From a bacterium (GTDB taxonomy: Bacteria > Vulcanimicrobiota > Vulcanimicrobiia > Vulcanimicrobiales > Vulcanimicrobiaceae), in NCBI GenBank assembly GCA_021805775.1, contig JAJZED010000013.1:1-64000 (forward strand): 64,000 bases of DNA, in the 5' to 3' direction. Within the stretch, counting starts at the first letter, position 1. Every line of letters begins with the position of its first letter. The position numbers were made by a program, and so were the translations under genes. Below are positions 1 to 54,206 of the stretch, piece by piece. Under the pieces are notes generated by a model. That model searched no databases. It saw only the letters and a program-made list of their open reading frames with translations, and had not been told where the DNA came from.

Positions 1-125
1 ATGGAAGCGGGGCGGACCGAATTTTCGACGACGTTAGAACGGATGTTCACGAATGGAGACTCAGAACGAAATATGTAGGGAGCACGACGTAGAAAACTCT
101 TGACAACACCGGCCTTCTCATGGAA
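1..125. other. Unassigned left edge
   Basis: No gene is supported here. Two plus-strand frames are open from the first base: one stops at 76-78 and another at 90-92. Either could be the 3-prime end of a gene that starts before the window. Neither short peptide is recognisable and codon use does not favour one. The repeat block follows directly. Confidence 0.3.
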
Positions 126-197
126 GCTGCCGAAGGCAGCGTATCGAGGGAGCGCTTCTCGCGCGCCTCGATACGGGCGCTAAAGCGCCCTACTCGG
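126..197. repeat. Cloverleaf-like inverted repeat, copy 1
   Basis: The element holds an arm GCTGCC-gaa-GGCAGC (126-140), then GTATCGAGG (141-149) pairing with CCTCGATAC (166-174), then an arm GGGCGC-taaa-GCGCCC (175-190), then TACTCGG (191-197). The left outer arm CCGAGTA of complete copies is missing, so this copy is 5-prime truncated. No coding function is likely; open frames across the block are by-products of the repeat. Confidence 0.85.
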
Positions 198-206
198 CGT
201 GACAGT

Positions 207-265
207 ATCTCCATCACCCCGAGTAGCGCACCGCCGTCATCCCGAGTAGGCGCACCGCCGTCATC
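207..265. repeat. 24-bp direct repeats derived from the outer arm
   Basis: A unit beginning TCATCCCGAGTAGGCGCACC, about 24 bases long, occurs roughly twice between cloverleaf copies 1 and 2; the first is slightly diverged (CCATCACCCCGAGTAG). Each unit carries the left outer-arm sequence CCGAGTA of the larger element. The same linker recurs at 345-413, so the whole block has a period of about 148 bases. Confidence 0.8.
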
Positions 266-344
266 CCGAGTAGCTGCCGAAGGCAGCGTATCGAGGGAGC
301 GCTTCTCGCGCGCCTCGATACGGGCGCTAAAGCGCCCTACTCGG
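266..344. repeat. Cloverleaf-like inverted repeat, copy 2 (complete)
   Basis: All four helices are present. CCGAGTA (266-272) pairs with TACTCGG (338-344). GCTGCC (273-278) pairs with GGCAGC (282-287). GTATCGAGG (288-296) pairs with CCTCGATAC (313-321). GGGCGC (322-327) pairs with GCGCCC (332-337). The helices abut with almost no unpaired junction bases, giving a closed four-way junction like a cloverleaf, either as extruded DNA or as RNA. Confidence 0.9.
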
Positions 345-413
345 CGTGACAGTAGCTCCATCACCCCGAGTAGGCGCACCGCCGTCATCCCGAGTAGGCG
401 CACCGCCGTCATC
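345..413. repeat. Second linker of 24-bp direct repeats
   Basis: This nearly repeats the 198-265 segment: CGTGACAGTA, then a CCATCACCCCGAGTAG unit, then TCATCCCGAGTAGGCGCACC-type units. It joins cloverleaf copy 2 to truncated copy 3. Confidence 0.8.
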
Positions 414-457
414 CCGAGTAGCTGCCGAAGGCAGCGTATCGAGGGAGCGCTCCGCGG
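414..457. repeat. Cloverleaf-like repeat, copy 3 (truncated)
   Basis: It starts with CCGAGTA (414-420), the arm GCTGCC-gaa-GGCAGC (421-435) and GTATCGAGG (436-444). It stops before the matching CCTCGATAC strand, at the 3-prime end of the minus-strand lipoprotein gene whose stop codon is at 458-460. The repeat block therefore lies directly downstream of that gene and could affect the 3-prime end of its mRNA. Confidence 0.75.
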
Positions 458-1627
458 TTATTTAATTACGTGCCAATCGTTCATCACGTATTGAGCGCCG
501 CTCTGCGTCACCGTGAGCACGCCGTCTCCGAAGGCATCGACGGCAAAGGTCGAGACCTGCGAACCGGAGCTGTTGGTGAGAACGCCGCTGATGAAGTTGC
601 TGCTGGTCGGCGGCTGCGAGGTATTCGTCGTTACATTGAGCGTATCGCCGTCGACGAGGTGTGCGTTGGTAACGCTGAGATTTTCGAGCAAGCCGGCCTT
701 ATAGGTGGCGGCGATCGGTATCGAATAGGTGCCCTTGCTCGTTCCGCCGGTGAGCGTGAAATCGGGCGTCGAGATCGGGCAAGAAGTATTTTGCGTGCCG
801 GTCGCGACATTCAGCGCGCCGATTCCGCCGACATAACTGGTGCCCGACTGCGTGCCGCTATAGGTGACCGAACCGTCGCTGTTGACGGTTCGCGTTCCAC
901 CGGGGAGATCGCCGCCGGCCCATCCGAAGGTTTCGTTCAACGATGCAATTCCGGTCGCATTAAACCCGGCGCTATCGCCGCAGTAGGTGCTCGCTCCGGC
1001 ATTGGCCGCACCGATGCTGTATTCGGCGCTCGATTCGATGCTTTTTATACCGGTGAGATTGAGCGTACTCGTTTGGATGCGGTCGAAACCATCGGCGACG
1101 ATGGGGTAGCCGTTGTTGCCGAAGGTGGCATTCGAGATCGTTACGTTGTCGCTACGCACCGAACTGGCCGTGTTGTTCCCTTGCGGGTACTGCGATACGG
1201 TGCGAGAGATACTCTCGGCATTGGTACCGATGACGGTATACTTGCGCACGGTGTCGCGCGCGATCTGCGTGCATGCTTGGTCGTAGAAAACGATTCGTTC
1301 GCTCGAATTGGCATCGCCGTTTTTATCGGGAACGAAATACTCGACGCCGTTATTACATTGCCCGCTGCCGACGGCTTGCGCCTCGCGACCGACCGTTGCG
1401 AGCGGGCTGCCGACGCCGCTCTCGACGCTGTTGAGCGTCTTCACCGGCGAGCCTACGGCGTTCGCCGATGCAATCGAATCCTCCGATTGGGTTTGTGCGC
1501 TCTGCGGTGCGGGGTTGGAACCACCCGAGGTTCCGCCGGGAAGGCTGGGAGCGCTGCCGGCGGCACCGCCGCCGCATCCGGCGAGCAACAGCGCGGCGAG
1601 AGCAGCGTATATGACCTGATTGCGCAT
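458..1627 (-). CDS. Secreted lipoprotein of unknown function
   Basis: A 389-residue protein with a lipoprotein signal peptide: a short charged start, a hydrophobic stretch and the lipobox LLAGC near residue 18, so it is probably lipid-anchored. A Gly/Ser/Pro/Gln-rich linker follows (about 20-55). The rest is rich in Thr, Ser, Asn and Gly and looks like an extracytoplasmic beta-rich domain; I recognise no family. The ATG start is supported by GAGGAGA just upstream on the minus strand. It is a single-gene unit facing the repeat block. Surface or periplasmic location is inferred from the signal only. Confidence 0.8.
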   Translation of the reverse strand: MRNQVIYAALAALLLAGCGGGAAGSAPSLPGGTSGGSNPAPQSAQTQSEDSIASANAVGSPVKTLNSVESGVGSPLATVGREAQAVGSGQCNNGVEYFVPDKNGDANSSERIVFYDQACTQIARDTVRKYTVIGTNAESISRTVSQYPQGNNTASSVRSDNVTISNATFGNNGYPIVADGFDRIQTSTLNLTGIKSIESSAEYSIGAANAGASTYCGDSAGFNATGIASLNETFGWAGGDLPGGTRTVNSDGSVTYSGTQSGTSYVGGIGALNVATGTQNTSCPISTPDFTLTGGTSKGTYSIPIAATYKAGLLENLSVTNAHLVDGDTLNVTTNTSQPPTSSNFISGVLTNSSGSQVSTFAVDAFGDGVLTVTQSGAQYVMNDWHVIK

Positions 1628-8633: not shown

Positions 8634-9086
8634 ATGCCGAACTACTGGCTTTTCAAAAGCGAGCCGCAGAGCTATTCCATAGACGATCTGCAACGCGATG
8701 GTACGACACCGTGGAGCGGCGTTCGCAATTATCAGGCGCGCAACTTCATGCAGGCGATGTCGGTAGGCGACGAAGCTTTTTTTTATCACTCGTCGTGCGC
8801 CGTGCCGGGAATTGTCGGAGTCTGCCTCGTCGTGCGCACCGCCTATCCCGACGCAACCGCCTTCGACTCGCGCAGCGAGTACTACGATCCTAAAAGTTCG
8901 CCGGAGACCCCGCGCTGGTTCAATGTCGACGTAAAATTTCTCCGCGCGTTTTCCGATGTCGTACCGCTAACGCGTCTACGAGAGATCGCCACGCTTACAA
9001 ATATGCCGCTGCTACAGCGCGGCCAACGCCTTTCGGTGCAACCCGTTCGCGCCACCGAGTGGCGCGCCATTCTCAAGCTCGCTTGA
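8634..9086 (+). CDS. EVE-domain protein
   Basis: A 150-residue EVE (PUA-like) protein. It begins PNYWLFKSEPQSYSIDDL, the hallmark of the THYN1/EVE family, followed by WSGVRNYQARNF and MSVGDEAFFYHS. These domains bind modified bases in DNA or RNA; some are linked to modification-dependent restriction, others are housekeeping. No nuclease or methylase gene is nearby, which favours housekeeping. It is the last gene before a repeat block. Confidence 0.92.
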   Translation: MPNYWLFKSEPQSYSIDDLQRDGTTPWSGVRNYQARNFMQAMSVGDEAFFYHSSCAVPGIVGVCLVVRTAYPDATAFDSRSEYYDPKSSPETPRWFNVDVKFLRAFSDVVPLTRLREIATLTNMPLLQRGQRLSVQPVRATEWRAILKLA

Positions 9087-9100
9087 ACGTAGTTCCACGA

Positions 9101-9152
9101 TCATCCCGAGTAGCGAGAACGCGCTATCATCGCGAGTAGCAAGAACGCTCTG
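9101..9152. repeat. Two 26-bp direct repeats of the left outer arm
   Basis: TCATCCCGAGTAGCGAGAAC (9101-) and TCATCGCGAGTAGCAAGAAC (9127-) begin two imperfect 26-base units. A third CATCCCGAGTAG opens the cloverleaf element at 9153. Each is a diverged copy of the element's left outer-arm sequence with a different tail. Confidence 0.8.
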
Positions 9153-9157
9153 TCATC

Positions 9158-9231
9158 CCGAGTAGCCGCGCAGCGGCGTATCGAGGGAGCGATTCTTCCG
9201 CCTCGATACGGCGCCTTCAGCGCCTACTCGG
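9158..9231. repeat. Cloverleaf-like inverted repeat, copy 4 (complete, variant arms)
   Basis: It has the same architecture as 266-344. CCGAGTA (9158-9164) pairs with TACTCGG (9225-9231). GCCGC (9165-9169) pairs with GCGGC (9173-9177). GTATCGAGG (9178-9186) pairs with CCTCGATAC (9201-9209). GGCGC (9210-9214) pairs with GCGCC (9220-9224). Outer and central helices are identical to copy 2. Both side arms differ in sequence but still pair perfectly, which suggests selection on structure. Confidence 0.9.
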
Positions 9232-9237
9232 CGTGAC

Positions 9238-9391
9238 AACGCAATCTACTCGGCGTGACAACGCAATCTACTCGGCGTGACAACGCAATCTACTCGGCGT
9301 GACAACGCAATCTACTCGGCGTGACAACGCAATCTACTCGGCGTGACAACGCAATCTACTCGGCGTGACAACGCAATCTACTCGGCGTGAC
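9238..9391. repeat. Tandem array, seven exact 22-bp units
   Basis: The unit AACGCAATCTACTCGGCGTG + AC is repeated seven times without variation. It contains CTACTCGGCGTGAC, the right outer arm and flank of the cloverleaf element immediately upstream. There are no spacers, so it is not a CRISPR array. Perfect identity implies recent expansion. The array fills the space between convergent genes (EVE and the TonB receptor). Confidence 0.95.
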
Positions 9392-9398
9392 AAGGCAG

Positions 9399-9477: not shown

Positions 9478-12360
9478 TTAGAACTTCGTCGTAAGGATAA
9501 AGCGATAGGTTGCCGGCCCGAGCACGTTGCCGACGGTCGCCGCTTGCGAACCGTTGACGAGGGAAATCGGCACACCGCCTCCGTAGACCGGAAAGAGACC
9601 GTTATAAGCGTTGAAGATGTTGTCTCCGGAGATCTGGACGTCGAAGCGTTTGTTAATCGGCACGCGCACGGTCACATAGCCGATACCGAACGGCGGACGG
9701 TTCGCCGAGTTGTTATTCCCGAGAAGCGTATCGCCGAGGGCGGCATAGAGGCCGCTCTCGGAGCGATAGTTGAGCTCGAGGTTTGCCTGCGCGTACGGTA
9801 GACGCGTATTCATCGAACCGATCGTGCTGCCGTACCCAATGCCGCCGCCGTTGAAGTTCTGATTGGCGATGACGTTGAGGTTCTGGTTCTGCGTGCAATT
9901 CGGCCCCGGGTTGGCGCAATAGAAATATTGCGGCAGATTGTATACGTAGCCACGTGAGAGATCTCCCTCGATTCTATAACCCAGTCCTACGTGAGGGAGG
10001 CTGCTGAGCCCAAGCTCGAGTCCCTGGAATCGTGCGTTGCTCAGGTTGATATTTGTTTCGTAGAACACCGGATTGCCGTTGACAACCTGCGAACCTTGAT
10101 AGTAGCACTGCACTTGGGGGCTCGCGCAAGTGTATGGGCTTGGCGAACCTTGGCTAAAGTACTTGTTGAAAAGATTCGTTTGATAGAGATCGGCCGTTAG
10201 TACCGAACTTAATTTTGGAAATCGTACGGTCGCGCCAAGGTCGTATCCGAATGACGTTTCGGGCTTTAACGAACCGTTATTTTGAGTGAGCGTCGCAAAC
10301 CCGCCGTTGCTGTTGTAATTTGCAACCGGGCCTGAGATTTGGCTTAAGAGCAGCAGATAGGGCGGCGCTATCGCGGACCCCGCTGCGAATCGGATTACGG
10401 TATTGCTATTCGTCCGATATGTTAGTGCGAATCGATCGTCGAAATGCGTATTCGTCGTCGACGCGAACGTCTCATTCGAGCCATCAATAGCACAATTGGA
10501 GTATTGGCCGGAGAACGGACAAGAAATCGGATAGGTGCTGTTGTAGATGTTTTCGTAGAGGGTCGCATAGCCGCTCAGTTTCGGATTGATGCGAAAGTGA
10601 CCGCGCAACGTAAACGTCGTAAACTTCTGCGCCGAACCGGTCGGCAGGTTGACGCTGACGAACGCGCTCTTCGAGTAAGAGGTCGTCGATGAAACGGTCT
10701 GGTCGACGCCGAAGCTCAGCGTATTGCTGCCGATCGGGTGAAGGTAGAGAAACGATATTCCCGAGAGCGCGTCTTGCTCGGTCTGCAGATAGCTGCTCGG
10801 CACTCTTAGCGTTACCGGCGTGCCGTTGTAAAAAACCGGCGTCGCCGAGCAGACGTTATTTGTGATTTTTCCGGGGCACGAAGAGCCATAGAGCGTCTGC
10901 GTTACTAAACTCGGCGTCCCGTTGGGGTTACCTTCGGTAACCTGACGCAAGATCGAGGCGTGATAGTAGCGCGCGAGTACCGTATCGCGGCCGAGCGTCG
11001 AGCGAACCTCTGCTTGCACGATCGGCTCGTTATTGATTTCCTGGTCGGTGCCGCCGTAATGAAGATAATTCACACCGAGACCGCCCGCTGCGAGGCTTCC
11101 GGTATATCCGGCGAGCGGCGCAAACGTGCCCAGGGTAAGGTTTCCGGTGTTGCCGTTCTGATCGGAGAAAGTTTGCGAGCCGAGGTAGCTCACCGTTGCG
11201 GTCGTTGCGTCGGAGAGTTTATAGCGAAACTTCACGAGCTCGGCGGTCTGGGTGTATTGTCCTTGCACGTTATAGCAGCAAGCGATGAGCGGGTACGCCG
11301 TTTGAATATACGACGAGGTTCCTGGAACCGCGCTGTAGAGGTTGGTACCGTTAAACCCTTGGAGCGATTGATTCGTGGCGTTATCGTACGTTTTCGGTAC
11401 CGATGAGGGATCGTAGTAGACTTGCTGGTTATTGAGCGCGGAAGGATCGTCGAGCGTTGCGACGTCGAAGACGAGGCCGAGCCGGCTGACGGTATCGGAG
11501 AACCCGAAATTCGAGAACGTGCCGCCGTGGTTCGTAACGCCGAGGGCGATATCCGGGGTCGGTTTATAGGTTGGGTCTTTCGTGCGGAAGTTCAACGTAC
11601 CGCCGATAGCGTAGTTGACCGGAACGGTAGCGCCTGGCCCCTTGACGACTTCGGTGTTCGAGAACATATACGCATTGAGGAACGTGGTGACGTAGTCGCC
11701 GTAGGTTCCCACCGAAAGCGGATGCCCGTCGATGAGCGTGGCGGTTTCAAACGAACCCGCACCGCGAATATTGGGAACGGTTATCGAGCCGGGGACGGCA
11801 GCATTTGCGCCGCTCGACGGAAAGGATATCTGCACGCCCGGCACTTGGCTGAGCACGCGCGTCACCTGAACCGCGCCCTGATCGGCATAGACCGCCGACG
11901 AGACGACGTTCACCGCCGCCGGCGTCGTGTTAAACGTTCCGCGCCCGACGGCACGGACCGTGGCGATCGTCCGCAGCGAGGAGAACGTCGCCGCATGCAT
12001 CGTCACGACGACGTTTTGGCTCTGCCCGGCAACGACGGTATAATCGGTGTCGGTCGCCGTCTGATAGCCCGGTTTCGTAACGATAATTTCATAGAGGCCC
12101 GGCGCGATGCCGGAGACGGTAAAATTGCCCTTCGCATCGGAGAGGGCGTAATAGCTCTTGGGGCCGCGGACGGCGATCGTCGCCCCCGCAACCGGAGCGC
12201 CGGAGATATCGTGGAGCGAGCCGCTCACGGTTCCGGTGCTTTGAGATGCAGCCTGTGCGACGAGGCGAGGCGACGCGCTTCGAACCGTTGCCGCGCTGAC
12301 GGGTCCAACGGCGAAGGCGGCGATGGCCGCGACGAGCAGGAGTCGAGTGAGTGTACTCAG
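9478..12360 (-). CDS. TonB-dependent receptor with carboxypeptidase-regulatory-like domain, CTG start
   Basis: About 960 residues. It begins with a signal peptide (to about residue 29, ending GPVSAAT), then a CarboxypepD_reg-like beta-sandwich (about 45-112; GSLHDISGAPVAGATIAV), then a plug domain with VLSQVPGV, IRGAG and VVKGPGA, then a long outer-membrane beta-barrel ending in phenylalanine (LTTKF). It should import a ligand such as a siderophore, glycan or peptide across the outer membrane using TonB energy. No ATG, GTG or TTG lies near the signal peptide. The only start with a ribosome site is CTG at 12360, 6 bases after AGGAGG. A longer frame would run into polyphosphate kinase. Confidence 0.88.
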   Translation of the reverse strand: MSTLTRLLLVAAIAAFAVGPVSAATVRSASPRLVAQAASQSTGTVSGSLHDISGAPVAGATIAVRGPKSYYALSDAKGNFTVSGIAPGLYEIIVTKPGYQTATDTDYTVVAGQSQNVVVTMHAATFSSLRTIATVRAVGRGTFNTTPAAVNVVSSAVYADQGAVQVTRVLSQVPGVQISFPSSGANAAVPGSITVPNIRGAGSFETATLIDGHPLSVGTYGDYVTTFLNAYMFSNTEVVKGPGATVPVNYAIGGTLNFRTKDPTYKPTPDIALGVTNHGGTFSNFGFSDTVSRLGLVFDVATLDDPSALNNQQVYYDPSSVPKTYDNATNQSLQGFNGTNLYSAVPGTSSYIQTAYPLIACCYNVQGQYTQTAELVKFRYKLSDATTATVSYLGSQTFSDQNGNTGNLTLGTFAPLAGYTGSLAAGGLGVNYLHYGGTDQEINNEPIVQAEVRSTLGRDTVLARYYHASILRQVTEGNPNGTPSLVTQTLYGSSCPGKITNNVCSATPVFYNGTPVTLRVPSSYLQTEQDALSGISFLYLHPIGSNTLSFGVDQTVSSTTSYSKSAFVSVNLPTGSAQKFTTFTLRGHFRINPKLSGYATLYENIYNSTYPISCPFSGQYSNCAIDGSNETFASTTNTHFDDRFALTYRTNSNTVIRFAAGSAIAPPYLLLLSQISGPVANYNSNGGFATLTQNNGSLKPETSFGYDLGATVRFPKLSSVLTADLYQTNLFNKYFSQGSPSPYTCASPQVQCYYQGSQVVNGNPVFYETNINLSNARFQGLELGLSSLPHVGLGYRIEGDLSRGYVYNLPQYFYCANPGPNCTQNQNLNVIANQNFNGGGIGYGSTIGSMNTRLPYAQANLELNYRSESGLYAALGDTLLGNNNSANRPPFGIGYVTVRVPINKRFDVQISGDNIFNAYNGLFPVYGGGVPISLVNGSQAATVGNVLGPATYRFILTTKF

Positions 12361-12366
12361 AGCAAA

Positions 12367-12372
12367 CCTCCT
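12367..12372 (-). promoter_or_regulatory. Ribosome-binding site AGGAGG supporting a CTG start
   Basis: The perfect AGGAGG (reverse of CCTCCT) ends 6 bases before the CTG codon at 12358-12360, directly followed by the signal peptide codons. No canonical start codon exists in that frame between here and the stop of the upstream ppk gene. Confidence 0.7.
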
Positions 12373-12460
12373 GTAAGAAACGATAAATCCAAGGCCGCGC
12401 CGTCGTGCGGCAGACGCCCCCGAACATCGCTGAGTGTAACCTGAAAAGATTACGAGTAGA

Positions 12461-14569
12461 TTAAGAGAGCAAGCGCTCGCGCCGCCGGAGCAGCTCGACT
12501 TGGGCGTCGATGCCGGCGCCGGGGCGAAGCGCCAGGCGCCGATAGGTGCCATCGGGGAGCAGTTCCCGCGACTGCTGCGTATCGGCAAAGAGCACCGTGG
12601 CCAGCAGCCGATCGAGATCCTCCGCCATCTCGCGCTCCTCGATCGGGACGGCGAGTTCGACCCGGCGATCGAGGTTGCGCCCCATCCAGTCCGCACTGCC
12701 GATGAAGAGTTTTCGGTCGCCGCCATCGGTGAATGAAAAGAGGCGCGAGTGTTCGAGAAAACGCCCGACGATCGAGCGCACGCGTATGCTCTCGCTCAAG
12801 CCCGGGACGCCCGGTCGCAGCGTGCACATTCCGCGCACGAGAAGATCGATCGGCACCCCCGCCTGCGAGGCGCGATAGAGCGCGCGCACCACCTCTTTGT
12901 CGGTAAGCGCATTGAGTTTAGCGCGAATTCCGCATGGCCGCCGGGCCTCGGCGTGCTCGGTCTCGCGGTCGATCGCCGCGAGAATCTCACGACGCAGCGT
13001 GACCGGGGCTACGAGTAGTTCGTCATAATCGGTGACTTTTGCAAAGCCGGTGAGCGCATTGAACATCTGCGCGAGGTCGGCCCCCAACCTCGCTCGCGCG
13101 GTAAACAAGCTGAAATCCGTATAGAGCCGCGCGCTTTTTTCGTTATAGTTGCCGGTGCCGAAATGCATGTACCTCCGTATGCCGTCTTCATCTTCGCGCA
13201 CGACCAACAATGCCTTGGCATGGACTTTCAACCCCGGAAAACCGTAAACGACGTGAACGCCGGCACGCTCGAGGCGGCGCGCCCATTCGATATTATTTTC
13301 TTCGTCGAAACGCGCTTTGAGTTCGATGACGACGGCAACCTGTTTTTCGTTCTCGGCTGCTTCCAACAAAGCACGCACGATCGGCGAGTCGCTTCCCGAG
13401 GTGCGATAGAGCGTTGCCTTTATCGCCAACACGCGATCGTCATTTGCGGCGGCTTGCACGAATTGAACGACCGGATCGAACGAATCGTAGGGATGGTGCA
13501 ATAAAATATCGCCTTCGCGGATCGCCGCGAATATATCGCTTACTCCGCGTAGCCGCACCGGGATCGCCGGCGCAAACGGCTGGTCGCGCATTTCGTCGTG
13601 CCCCGCCTGCCGGTAGAGCGACATTAAGTCGCTCAACCCCAACAAACCATCGATATCGTAGCAATCCGCTTCATGCAGATCGAGCGCATCGAGCAAAAAC
13701 GCTCGAAGGTTCTCCGGAATGCCGCGTTCCACTTCCAGGCGAACGGGTTCGCCGAATCGTCGCTTCTGCAATTCCGATTCGATCGCTTGCAGTAAGTCGT
13801 CGGCTTCGTCTTCTTGCAAGTCGAGATCGGCGTCACGCGTCACGCGAAACAAATACGAAGCACGCACCGTCATGCCGGGGAATAGTGCATCCAAGTGATG
13901 GGCGATCGCATCTTCGATCAGCACAAAGCTCCTGGTCCCCGCAGCGCTTTCGGGAATTTCGATGAACCGCGGCAACGTCGGCGGTATTTTCACCCGGGCA
14001 AAATGCACGTCGATCCCGTCGGGCGTCACTTCCTCAAGCTCGACCGCTAACGAGAGCGAAAGATTTGAAATATACGGAAACGGGTGCCCGCTATCGACGG
14101 CGAGCGGAGTAAGCACGGGAAACACGCGTTCGTCGAAAACGTGCTCGACGGTGCGCGCGCGCTCCTCGTCGAGGTCGGTCACGCTCAGAATCCGCACGCC
14201 CTTTTCCGCTATCGCTGGGAAAAGATCGTCCCGTAGCACTTTCATCTGCTGCGGAAGCGTCTCACGAATATAATCGGAGATTGCCTTCAAGTGTTCGGCC
14301 GGTTGACGCCCGTCGTCGGAGCGAGTCGTCACGCCGGCGGCGATCTGCTGCTTGATCGCGGCGACTCGGATCATAAAAAATTCGTCGAGGTTCGTTCCGA
14401 ATATCGAGACGAACTTCAATCGCTCCAACAGCGGATTTTTTGGATCGAGCGCTTCTTCTAGGACGCGGTCGTTGAAGGCCAGCCACGAAAGTTCGCGGCT
14501 AAAAAAAAGCTCGGCATCGCCCCGTTCCGCGTTTTGCGGCGGAATCGCGGCTTCGAATCTCTGGAGCAT
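12461..14569 (-). CDS. ppk1: Polyphosphate kinase 1
   Basis: A 702-residue Ppk1, which reversibly polymerises ATP gamma-phosphate into polyphosphate. The N-terminal domain has ELSWLAFNDRVLEEA, and the head domain follows. The phosphorylated-histidine region KVHAKALLV and the MHFGTGNYNEKSA segment are present, as is GSADWMGRNLDRRVE near the C-terminus. Length is normal for the family. It is divergent from the OpuB-type transporter operon across a 44-base gap and is followed at 100 bases by the TonB receptor on the same strand. Confidence 0.95.
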   Translation of the reverse strand: MLQRFEAAIPPQNAERGDAELFFSRELSWLAFNDRVLEEALDPKNPLLERLKFVSIFGTNLDEFFMIRVAAIKQQIAAGVTTRSDDGRQPAEHLKAISDYIRETLPQQMKVLRDDLFPAIAEKGVRILSVTDLDEERARTVEHVFDERVFPVLTPLAVDSGHPFPYISNLSLSLAVELEEVTPDGIDVHFARVKIPPTLPRFIEIPESAAGTRSFVLIEDAIAHHLDALFPGMTVRASYLFRVTRDADLDLQEDEADDLLQAIESELQKRRFGEPVRLEVERGIPENLRAFLLDALDLHEADCYDIDGLLGLSDLMSLYRQAGHDEMRDQPFAPAIPVRLRGVSDIFAAIREGDILLHHPYDSFDPVVQFVQAAANDDRVLAIKATLYRTSGSDSPIVRALLEAAENEKQVAVVIELKARFDEENNIEWARRLERAGVHVVYGFPGLKVHAKALLVVREDEDGIRRYMHFGTGNYNEKSARLYTDFSLFTARARLGADLAQMFNALTGFAKVTDYDELLVAPVTLRREILAAIDRETEHAEARRPCGIRAKLNALTDKEVVRALYRASQAGVPIDLLVRGMCTLRPGVPGLSESIRVRSIVGRFLEHSRLFSFTDGGDRKLFIGSADWMGRNLDRRVELAVPIEEREMAEDLDRLLATVLFADTQQSRELLPDGTYRRLALRPGAGIDAQVELLRRRERLLS

Positions 14570-22364: not shown

Positions 22365-22404
22365 GCAAGCCGCGCCTCGATACGCCGGCTTGCCATCTAC
22401 TCGG
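22365..22404. repeat. Remnant of the cloverleaf repeat family
   Basis: CCTCGATAC (22375-22383) and CTACTCGG (22397-22404), the right half of the central and outer helices, are preserved in order. The left half is lost. Instead GCAAGCCG (22365-22372) pairs with CGGCTTGC (22386-22393). GGTGAC follows, as in the intact copies. It sits between convergent genes, like the copy at 9158. Confidence 0.75.
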
Positions 22405-22421
22405 GGTGACGGAGATGGAAA

Positions 22422-52152: not shown

Positions 52153-54206
52153 ATCAGCGTCACCCGTTCGTCGCGGTCGCATCCGCGAAGTTCCTCGTCC
52201 AACATTGCGACGATGCGTTCCGAATCGGCAAAGCCGCGAAACTCCGAGATTCGTCCGCGACGTAGGAGGTAGAGATCGGGCAAACGCCGCCCGACATCGC
52301 CGAAGCGCGCCAGCATCTCAATTCCTTCGTTCGCGTACCGCTCGACCTCGACGACGCGAGCGCGCACCAGACGAGCGAACGGCGTCGCGAGCCGCACGAC
52401 GCCGCCGGCATCGATGACGCGAAGATTTTCTCCGTGTCGGAAACCGAAAAGCTCCGCCCCGAGATCGACCGTATCGAGCGCATCGGTCGAAACTCCGAGG
52501 CTCGTCGCAGCGATCCGCGCACGCTCTGTATCGCCGACGCGAGCGCGCGCTGCGACCGCGCCGCCGACCGCGCCGCCCGCCGTTGCAAGAACGCGATTGC
52601 GAATCGGGTCGATCGCAATATCGACCTCGATACTCGCCGGGTCGGCTCCACTTGCCACGGCCCGATCGCTCACCTCGCGGCGCAGGCGCGCGAGCTGTTC
52701 GACGCTGGGATCGACGATCTGTCGTTCGATGCTATCGCGCACCAACGCGAGCGCTACGCCGACCGGCGAGATCACTTCGTGATCGCGCGCGATCCGAAAG
52801 CGAAGATTCATCGAGCGCGCGAGAAACGGAACGATCGCGCGCGCCGCGCCTCCTCCGCCGACTAGTTCGAGAAGATGCGGATCGAGGCCGTACTCGGCAA
52901 CGAGCGCGCGCACCGTTGGGGCCACGCATTCGGTCGCGCGCTCGAGGATAGCGCGCGCGAGTCGCTCGGGCTGCATGCCGTGCGCGGCGGCCGCAAGGCC
53001 GAACGCCGCGTGCAAAGCGGCATCGTTCCCGCGTCCGAAGGCGCTTTCGGGAATCTCGCCGAGATAGTTCGCCGCACAGCTCGGCGTCAGTGCGATATCG
53101 TTCCCGTTCGGCGTGCGTAGCGCGAGAAACTCATCCTCGGCAACGCGTGCGTCGCGCAGATCGTCGAGGCTGCAGAATGCCGCGTATCGATAGCCGGCGA
53201 TATGCGCGCTGCGCGGGCCGACGGACTCGACGCCGGCTGCATTCATCCGCACCAAACTACCGCCGGCGATGCCGAGCGTTCGCACGTCGAGCGTTTGCAG
53301 CAAAAGGCGATGCGTACCGATGCGCCCCGGGCGCATCTGCGCGCGCCCGTTTCGAATGACCGAACAGTCGGAGCTGGTCCCGCCAACCTCGATGAATATC
53401 GCGTCGGTGACGTTTTCGTGAAGGAGCGCTCCGGCAATGCCCGCCGCCGGCCCCGATAGTAGCGTCGCGAGCGGGCGCCGTTCGATCTCTTCGATCGCCA
53501 TCACGCCGCCGTCGCTGCGCATCACCATCAACGGGGCGCGAATTCCGGCTGTCGTCACCGCCTCCGCCGTGCTGCGCGCCGCTCGCAGCATCCGCGGCAG
53601 TAACGCGGCGTTATAGGCCGCCGTGCGCGTGCGCGCGCGCAAACCGTAGAGCGAGCTGGCATCGCTTCCGGTGGTCGCGGGAAGTGCGAATTCGCGGGCG
53701 ATCTCGGCTGCGCGCCTCTCCCCGCCGCGACGATCGACGCCGAAGGCGCGCGTAACGGCAAGCGCCTCGATTCCGCATTCGCGTTGCAGAAACTCGATGC
53801 GATCCCGCTGCGCTCTCTCGTCGCGAGCGTCGGCAAAGGCCGTTGCGGGCGCAAACGCACGATCCCCCGCCGTAAGCGACGCGAGATACATCTGCATGCG
53901 GGCGAGCGCGCCGGCGCCGTCGAGCAAGCCGAGAATGCCGACCTGCGCGAGATCGCCTTCTAGTAACGCGTTCGTCGCCTGCGTCGTCGAGTGCGCGACG
54001 AATGCGATGCGCGCCGGGTCGATCCCGGTTGCAAGCAGACGTTCGATGCTTTCGCGAATGCCGCTCGCGACGCCGTCGGCGGCGTTATGGGTCGTCGGAA
54101 CCTTGACGCGCGCGACGACCGCGCGTTCGCTGGGATCGAGCGCTACGGCATCGGTAAACGTACCGCCGACGTCGATGCCGACGCGGAGCGGCGTTAGCGT
54201 ACCGAT
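52128..54206 (-). CDS. Hydantoinase/5-oxoprolinase A-type enzyme, non-canonical start
   Basis: About 692 residues if read from 54206. The first family motif RVGIDVGGTFTDAVALDPSE lies at about 7-26, then AHSTTQATNALLEG, SDGGVMAIEEI, LLSGPAAGI, IFIEVGGTSSDCSV and VGGGGAARAIVPFLARS. These are ATP-dependent N-methylhydantoinase/oxoprolinase A subunits that open cyclic amides such as 5-oxoproline. No ATG, GTG or TTG exists in frame between the previous stop and residue 94. Candidate starts are ATC at 54206 or CTC at 54188. It overlaps the M20 stop. No B subunit is seen. Confidence 0.8.
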   Translation of the reverse strand: MGTLTPLRVGIDVGGTFTDAVALDPSERAVVARVKVPTTHNAADGVASGIRESIERLLATGIDPARIAFVAHSTTQATNALLEGDLAQVGILGLLDGAGALARMQMYLASLTAGDRAFAPATAFADARDERAQRDRIEFLQRECGIEALAVTRAFGVDRRGGERRAAEIAREFALPATTGSDASSLYGLRARTRTAAYNAALLPRMLRAARSTAEAVTTAGIRAPLMVMRSDGGVMAIEEIERRPLATLLSGPAAGIAGALLHENVTDAIFIEVGGTSSDCSVIRNGRAQMRPGRIGTHRLLLQTLDVRTLGIAGGSLVRMNAAGVESVGPRSAHIAGYRYAAFCSLDDLRDARVAEDEFLALRTPNGNDIALTPSCAANYLGEIPESAFGRGNDAALHAAFGLAAAAHGMQPERLARAILERATECVAPTVRALVAEYGLDPHLLELVGGGGAARAIVPFLARSMNLRFRIARDHEVISPVGVALALVRDSIERQIVDPSVEQLARLRREVSDRAVASGADPASIEVDIAIDPIRNRVLATAGGAVGGAVAARARVGDTERARIAATSLGVSTDALDTVDLGAELFGFRHGENLRVIDAGGVVRLATPFARLVRARVVEVERYANEGIEMLARFGDVGRRLPDLYLLRRGRISEFRGFADSERIVAMLDEELRGCDRDERVTLIFVRAESV

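Follow-up and report, generated by a model that had tools for sequence, protein, structure and literature searches.

A cloverleaf-like bacterial repeat is, by its anatomy, a GTAG-tagged REP doublet

Is the four-armed fold at 126-457 of the window (the whole stretch of 64,000 nucleotides analysed here) a unit in its own right, or the product of something shorter? The nested helices noticed at 266-344 are confirmed, both by reading the letters directly and by minimum-free-energy folding. As DNA, the segment folds at -32.7 kcal/mol (z -5.6, a value that none of 200 shuffles matched); the RNA fold of minimum free energy has the same structure (z -6.4). The period of about 148 bases holds as well, with measured spacings of 147 and 148 bases. 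The sequence-only reading took both neighbouring copies to be truncated, at 126 and 414. This is right at 126, where the apparent truncation is due to an insertion-sequence end occupying window 1-124, whereas at 414 the right half is missing and the left half (412-446) is complete. The features are as follows.

1..124 (+): IS1111-like insertion sequence, its right end, lodged in the tag of the repeat and not part of the repeat itself
125..199 (+): first copy of the element, with its left half cut short by the insertion sequence and its right half 164-199 (-) complete (35.5 bits, E 1.1e-7)
214..249 (+): units 214-226 and 237-249, both tag-only: CCGAGTAG is there, the hairpin's 3' half is not
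260..351 (+): element copy 2, a complete head-to-head heterodimer (direct reading, fold, covariance model)
264..298 (+): left half of copy 2; basal TCCC/GGGA, internal loop GAGTA/GTATCGA, apical GCTGCC/GGCAGC (42.7 bits, E 9.4e-10)
266-272 and 338-344: outer helix of copy 2, CCGAGTA/TACTCGG (direct reading)
273-287: arm 1 of copy 2, GCTGCC-GAA-GGCAGC (direct reading)
288-296 and 313-321: central helix of copy 2, GTATCGAGG/CCTCGATAC (direct reading)
311..346 (-): right half of copy 2; basal CGCC/GGCG, internal loop GAGTA/GTATCGA, apical GGGCGC/GCGCCC (35.5 bits)
322-337: arm 2 of copy 2 (direct reading)
361..397 (+): two tag-only units, 361-373 and 385-397
409..446 (+): copy 3, left half complete and right half absent, adjoining the 3' end of gene 458-1627 (-)
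9099..9394: second complete element of the window, with halves 9156-9188 (+) and 9199-9233 (-) (55.2 and 41.0 bits)
22373..22406 (-): a lone, degenerate half, flanked by convergent ORFs (25.9 bits, E 6e-5)

The element at 9099..9394 carries tag-only arrays on its flanks and sits between convergent genes, 8634-9086 (+) and 9478-12726 (-). A match to GTATCGAGG at 52625 is due to chance within a gene and is not a copy of the repeat. Tandem tag-only units of about 20-32 bp (TGTCANSCCGAGTAG plus a few bases) flank full elements at many loci (L010, L015, window 9232-9394), and 96 of the 221 complete tags are tag-only. We had supposed that these units break within the loop of the hairpin every time, but this failed, the prefix shared with the nearest arm being anything from 1 to 13 nt.

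The cloverleaf results from two abutting inverted copies of one shorter hairpin, and is not the conserved unit. Its outer and central helices bring together one set of conserved letters and its inverted copy, so that cloverleaf pairing is obligatory and only the variable positions are informative. All copies listed read TGTCA-N-S-CCGAGTAG, hairpin, CGTATCGAGG and spacer, then the inverse of the same. Each half-element starts from a basal stem of 4 bp; above it come the 5/7 internal loop GAGTA/GTATCGA, which does not vary, and an apical stem, which does. The loop holds a GTAG tag, which is outside the apical stem, yet within an internal loop closed by the basal stem; GTAG is joined to a stem of at least 4 bp in 140 of 145 cores of the host genome, its last G being the first base of the stem. 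In the basal stem, the two bases outside CC/GG covary within a half (CGCC with GGCG, TCCC with GGGA, GCCC with GGGC), and positions 3 and 4 are paired in 92% and 88% in the host genome, against 46% and 38% after shuffling. The internal loop is exact at 30 motif-bearing loci, has one mismatch at 3, and has two to six at none. The first basal pair is pyrimidine-purine around GA...GA, which we take to fit putative tandem sheared G-A pairs in the loop. A different repeat, CTTCGACTCGCTTCGCTCGCTCAGGACAGGCTC, was seen inside the apical hairpin loop, where it leaves the apical stem of the host repeat intact, at L251, L258 (G005) and L291 (G002).

Covariation was assessed on an alignment of 56 halves, mostly from other phyla. 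Changes on both sides occur in 116 pair cells against 34.6 in shuffles, standard pairs make up 91% of the alignment, and the covariation score of 0.575 compares with 0.164 after shuffling and at most 0.12 once the pairing is slid. Arm substitutions therefore preserve pairing far above chance, rather than breaking it as often as they keep it, the outcome that the sequence-only reading had set against selection on structure. A covariance model built from this alignment, in which no row comes from the window and three come from other parts of the host genome, recovers six halves in the window (E 1e-7 to 2e-13) plus the degenerate half at 22373.

The host genome (2.59 Mb, 96% complete) was sampled in stretches, and the repeat is not local to the window. 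The suggestion of a mobile MITE-like element survives as a dispersed, structured, MITE/REP-like repeat, with 45 cores and 289 halves genome-wide, but not with the cloverleaf as its unit; the 289 are loose matches to the half pattern GAGTAG-N(6-24)-CGTATCGA, for which the reversed-pattern control gives 0. All ten congeneric genomes hold 30-289 halves, each with its own arm repertoire, and other genera of the family hold 0-5. The repeat is intergenic, present in high copy number, with HH/TT doublets, and lies mostly beside gene 3' ends: when ORFs are predicted with a simple codon model, convergent genes flank 17 of 28 intergenic clusters, against 38 convergent pairs among 168 pairs of adjacent genes.

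Scanning GTDB genomes with the pattern, the arm left free, yielded at least 117 stretches in many phyla. Among the matches listed, the loop motif with variable stems occurs in Eremiobacterota, Proteobacteria, Actinomycetota, Chloroflexota, Chlorobi, Latescibacterota, Peribacteria and others, and 88 of the 119 distinct arms form a palindrome of 4 bp or more, where about 5 would be expected. Whole-genome motif counts in 29 of the matched genomes run from 4 to 212 (control 0 or 1), although several 'bacterium isolate' MAGs look congeneric with the window (they have the same TGTCA-tag units), so that there are fewer independent lineages than genomes. The decisive evidence comes from two samples taken without imposed flanks, one from Gulosibacter and one from G143, an arbitrary genome of another group that was not chosen for the motif. 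The basal stem in G143 is exactly 4 bp, paired in 19 of 19 at all four positions; in Gulosibacter the four basal pairs hold in 44-49 of 49. Pairing beyond is at chance level in both, and the first basal pair is always T-A or C-G. Some single hairpins of Sphingomonas (L076, L143, L183, L190) use the GAGTA/GTATCGA internal loop twice in series. A phage origin was set aside, with only 22 stretches in 2.9 million viral contigs. Our literature searches found no description of the loop sequence or of Eremiobacterota repeats.

By anatomy, the repeat is a GTAG-tagged REP doublet. It shares with the GTAG REPs of Di Nocera et al. 2013 (PMC3733652) a GTAG-tagged hairpin, variable compensated stems that are short, a head-to-head arrangement with 11-22 bp between cores and a preference for heterodimers, and an intergenic location adjoining gene 3' ends. 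It differs from them, as far as they are described there, in the place of GTAG, which here is part of an internal loop closed below by a basal stem of 4 bp, an extra invariant GTATCGA on the 3' side, a loop that recurs in many phyla and a host genus without RAYT; the comparison with their 24 families is one of text descriptions. With the REPINs of Bertels and Rainey 2011 (PMC3116915), it has in common inverted REP doublets, dispersal, hairpin or clover folds and tandem clusters, but here no RAYT is present and the halves never share an arm, so that no long continuous hairpin forms. TnpA_REP/REPtron elements (PMC8266576) likewise have GTAG beside an irregular-stem hairpin, whereas tnpA_REP is found in 0 of 10 genomes here and the irregularity is an invariant 5/7 loop, not a mismatch or bulge.

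How might such a repeat spread? Our preferred reading, to which we give a probability of roughly 0.6, is that of a GTAG-tagged, REP-type palindromic repeat, arranged as a head-to-head heterodimer, in which the half-element is under constraint and a trans-acting protein would act on folded single-stranded DNA. Half-element hairpins would fold when the strand is single, on the lagging-strand template or in an extruded cruciform; the protein would recognise the invariant loop, and the doublet would be cut or copied and would spread mainly to 3' intergenic space. Halves kept different would each fold alone, without making a long hairpin-prone palindrome, and local amplification of copies may produce the tandem arrays and tag-only units. 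A wider version is more tentative, and we hold it somewhat less probable than its negation: a cross-phylum family of single-stranded DNA hairpins for which the invariant internal loop GAGTA/GTATCGA would be the recognition site and some enzyme that is not Y1/RAYT the agent of spread, and whose obligate heterodimers would avoid long palindromes.

A linked RAYT-type transposase, which the sequence-only reading proposed to look for, did not turn up: Y1_Tnp (PF01797) has matches in 0 of 10 congeneric genomes, even at E 10, with a search in which controls and 31 of 148 relatives do score. Among motif-bearing genomes, 15 of 29 have no PF01797 match at E 0.001. Nor is the motif enriched at RAYT loci elsewhere (3 model hits in 50 loci, 150 kb, about the density expectation). 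Because Y1/RAYT is absent from the genus and RAYT loci are not enriched, we call the repeat a GTAG REP doublet by anatomy and not a RAYT-mobilised REPIN. The search for a neighbour protein recurring across phyla returned only repeat-translated or common ORFs. As regards a MITE of a DDE transposon, the repeat has TGTCA/TGACA ends and we saw no parent transposon.

The repeat could instead be the relic of a lost RAYT, its doublets spread by an ancestral Y1 transposase and now subject only to tandem slippage, gene conversion and decay. REP persistence after RAYT loss is indeed described (PMC3733652), RAYTs are present elsewhere in the family and class, and tandem arrays vary at fixed orthologous sites. 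A RAYT is, however, kept by none of the ten congeners although each has its own arm repertoire, it is missing from other motif-rich genomes too, and the loop remains invariant, unlike the outcome of pure decay; we regard this history as possible, with perhaps one chance in four. Orthologous sites speak to turnover. At the 126-457 site, elements occur in three congeners (G001, G008 and G005), with different arms in G008 and G005, and three others (G002, G004, G006) have a short remnant only; the 9.2-kb site lacks the element in G008 and has it in most other congeners, and the units of tag-only arrays differ in sequence between species at the same orthologous site. Such variation in presence and arrays shows turnover, but by itself falls short of proving transposition, since 'empty' orthologous sites often retain remnants, which leaves movement rather than loss unproven.

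Could the cloverleaf itself be functional, as a four-way junction of DNA or RNA? It is the minimum-energy fold, and nearest-neighbour DNA energies, which give no credit to a structured internal loop, put it at -23.3 kcal/mol against -13.8 for two hairpins; it is the cheaper of the two in 38 of 38 elements evaluated. A clover fold was already put forward for REPINs, for recognition by the RAYT (PMC3116915, Fig. S11 legend), and the block, which the sequence-only reading had set above ordinary REP hairpins, is thus no more elaborate than known REP doublets. Pairing between the halves nevertheless goes the other way. The host genome has 42 head-to-head pairs, with 11-22 bp separating the half-element cores. 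In 28 unique doublets, pairing within halves is found in 54 of 56 and 51 of 56, while the same positions pair across halves in 2 to 5 of 28. Exactly at the variable positions, cross-half pairing is depleted: basal position 3 is cross-complementary in 2 of 37 doublets versus 16.8 expected, and the basal strand is identical in both halves in 0 of 37 versus 10.5 expected, values as low being reached in 0 of 5000 random re-pairings in either case. Identical arms occur in 0 of 37 doublets, which is weak taken alone as only 2.2 are expected; in other phyla an arm is shared in 0 of 35 opposed pairs, and the two genomes sampled without imposed flanks give 0 of 7 and 0 of 14. The elements are obligate heterodimers, which keep pairing within halves and strongly avoid cross-half extension beyond the invariant motif. 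Single halves and head-tail arrays are also common, and single halves have the same structure. A functional cloverleaf is already disfavoured and, in our estimate, improbable.

A mutational origin of the palindromes is about equally improbable. Replication template switching would rewrite the hairpins and yield paired changes without selection, which agrees with the near absence of one-sided intermediates beside the paired changes of the 56-half alignment; yet the internal loop between the covarying stems never turns paired, and the basal stem ends at exactly 4 bp. Template-switch correction in quasipalindromes could still yield part of the covariation without selection, a point against our preferred reading. 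Weakest is an RNA element, with transcribed hairpins terminating or stabilising mRNA ends, which fits the position beside gene 3' ends but is very unlikely given G-U/U-G pairs in only 6 of about 460 paired cells (a near absence that suggests DNA rather than RNA), no Rfam family, and a 9.2-kb copy that lies past a separate terminator-like hairpin with a T run. The likeness to a tRNA cloverleaf also finds no support: neither a tRNA or tmRNA search nor an Rfam search, at gathering and relaxed thresholds, gave anything credible.

The repeat also receives insertion sequences. The sequence of window 1-124 is found again at the ends of contigs from six congeneric genomes, and its junction with the repeat falls at (GAGT)^AG in 11 of 11 copies; the opposite end abuts CCGAGTAG^ in four contigs of the host genome, with matching subterminal inverted repeats. 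In the G006 copy, the right-end non-coding region contains 10 nt of the target, CGCCGAGTAG (as much in 15 of 2000 shuffles). Subterminal inverted repeats, a long 3' non-coding region and a fixed insertion point are shared with the IS1111/IS110 elements that target REPs, ISPa11, an IS1111 element, being one that does so (PMC11187229), although the insertion sequence of the window is known from its ends alone, its body lying beyond contig ends. Such ends occur in the host genome (G000) at C3, C5, the start of C6, both ends of C14 and the ends of C19 and C25, the body being missing from the assembly. Since the end of C19 has the same doublet as the window, the C19 end, the insertion sequence and the C14 start probably once formed a single locus. 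A second insertion sequence, its ORF beginning MTATTICIGR, is seen in three copies in the host genome, at both ends of C1 and the start of C19 (L295, L296, L302), and all three meet the repeat at CGTATCGAG^ATTCC. A third mobile end (CCTGATATGTTGGGG...) is in or near the repeat in 2 of 3 copies there (C27 start, C9 end, C11 end; L310, L019, L020).

Several things set this repeat apart: across phyla the loop stays constant while the stems vary freely, G-T pairs are nearly absent, cross-half extension is avoided, and the transposase is missing. A REP family usually belongs to a single genus and goes with a RAYT; the loop motif described here, its stems free, spans phyla, often in genomes that lack a Y1 transposase. 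Separating the presumably recognised part, the loop, from the free part, the stems, allows a direct search for the enzyme. The heterodimer preference of REP doublets has no obvious explanation according to PMC3733652, and the cross-half avoidance quantified here offers that question a testable answer. Finally, site-specific insertion sequences dock in the repeat, and they in turn shape rearrangements and the places where assemblies break.
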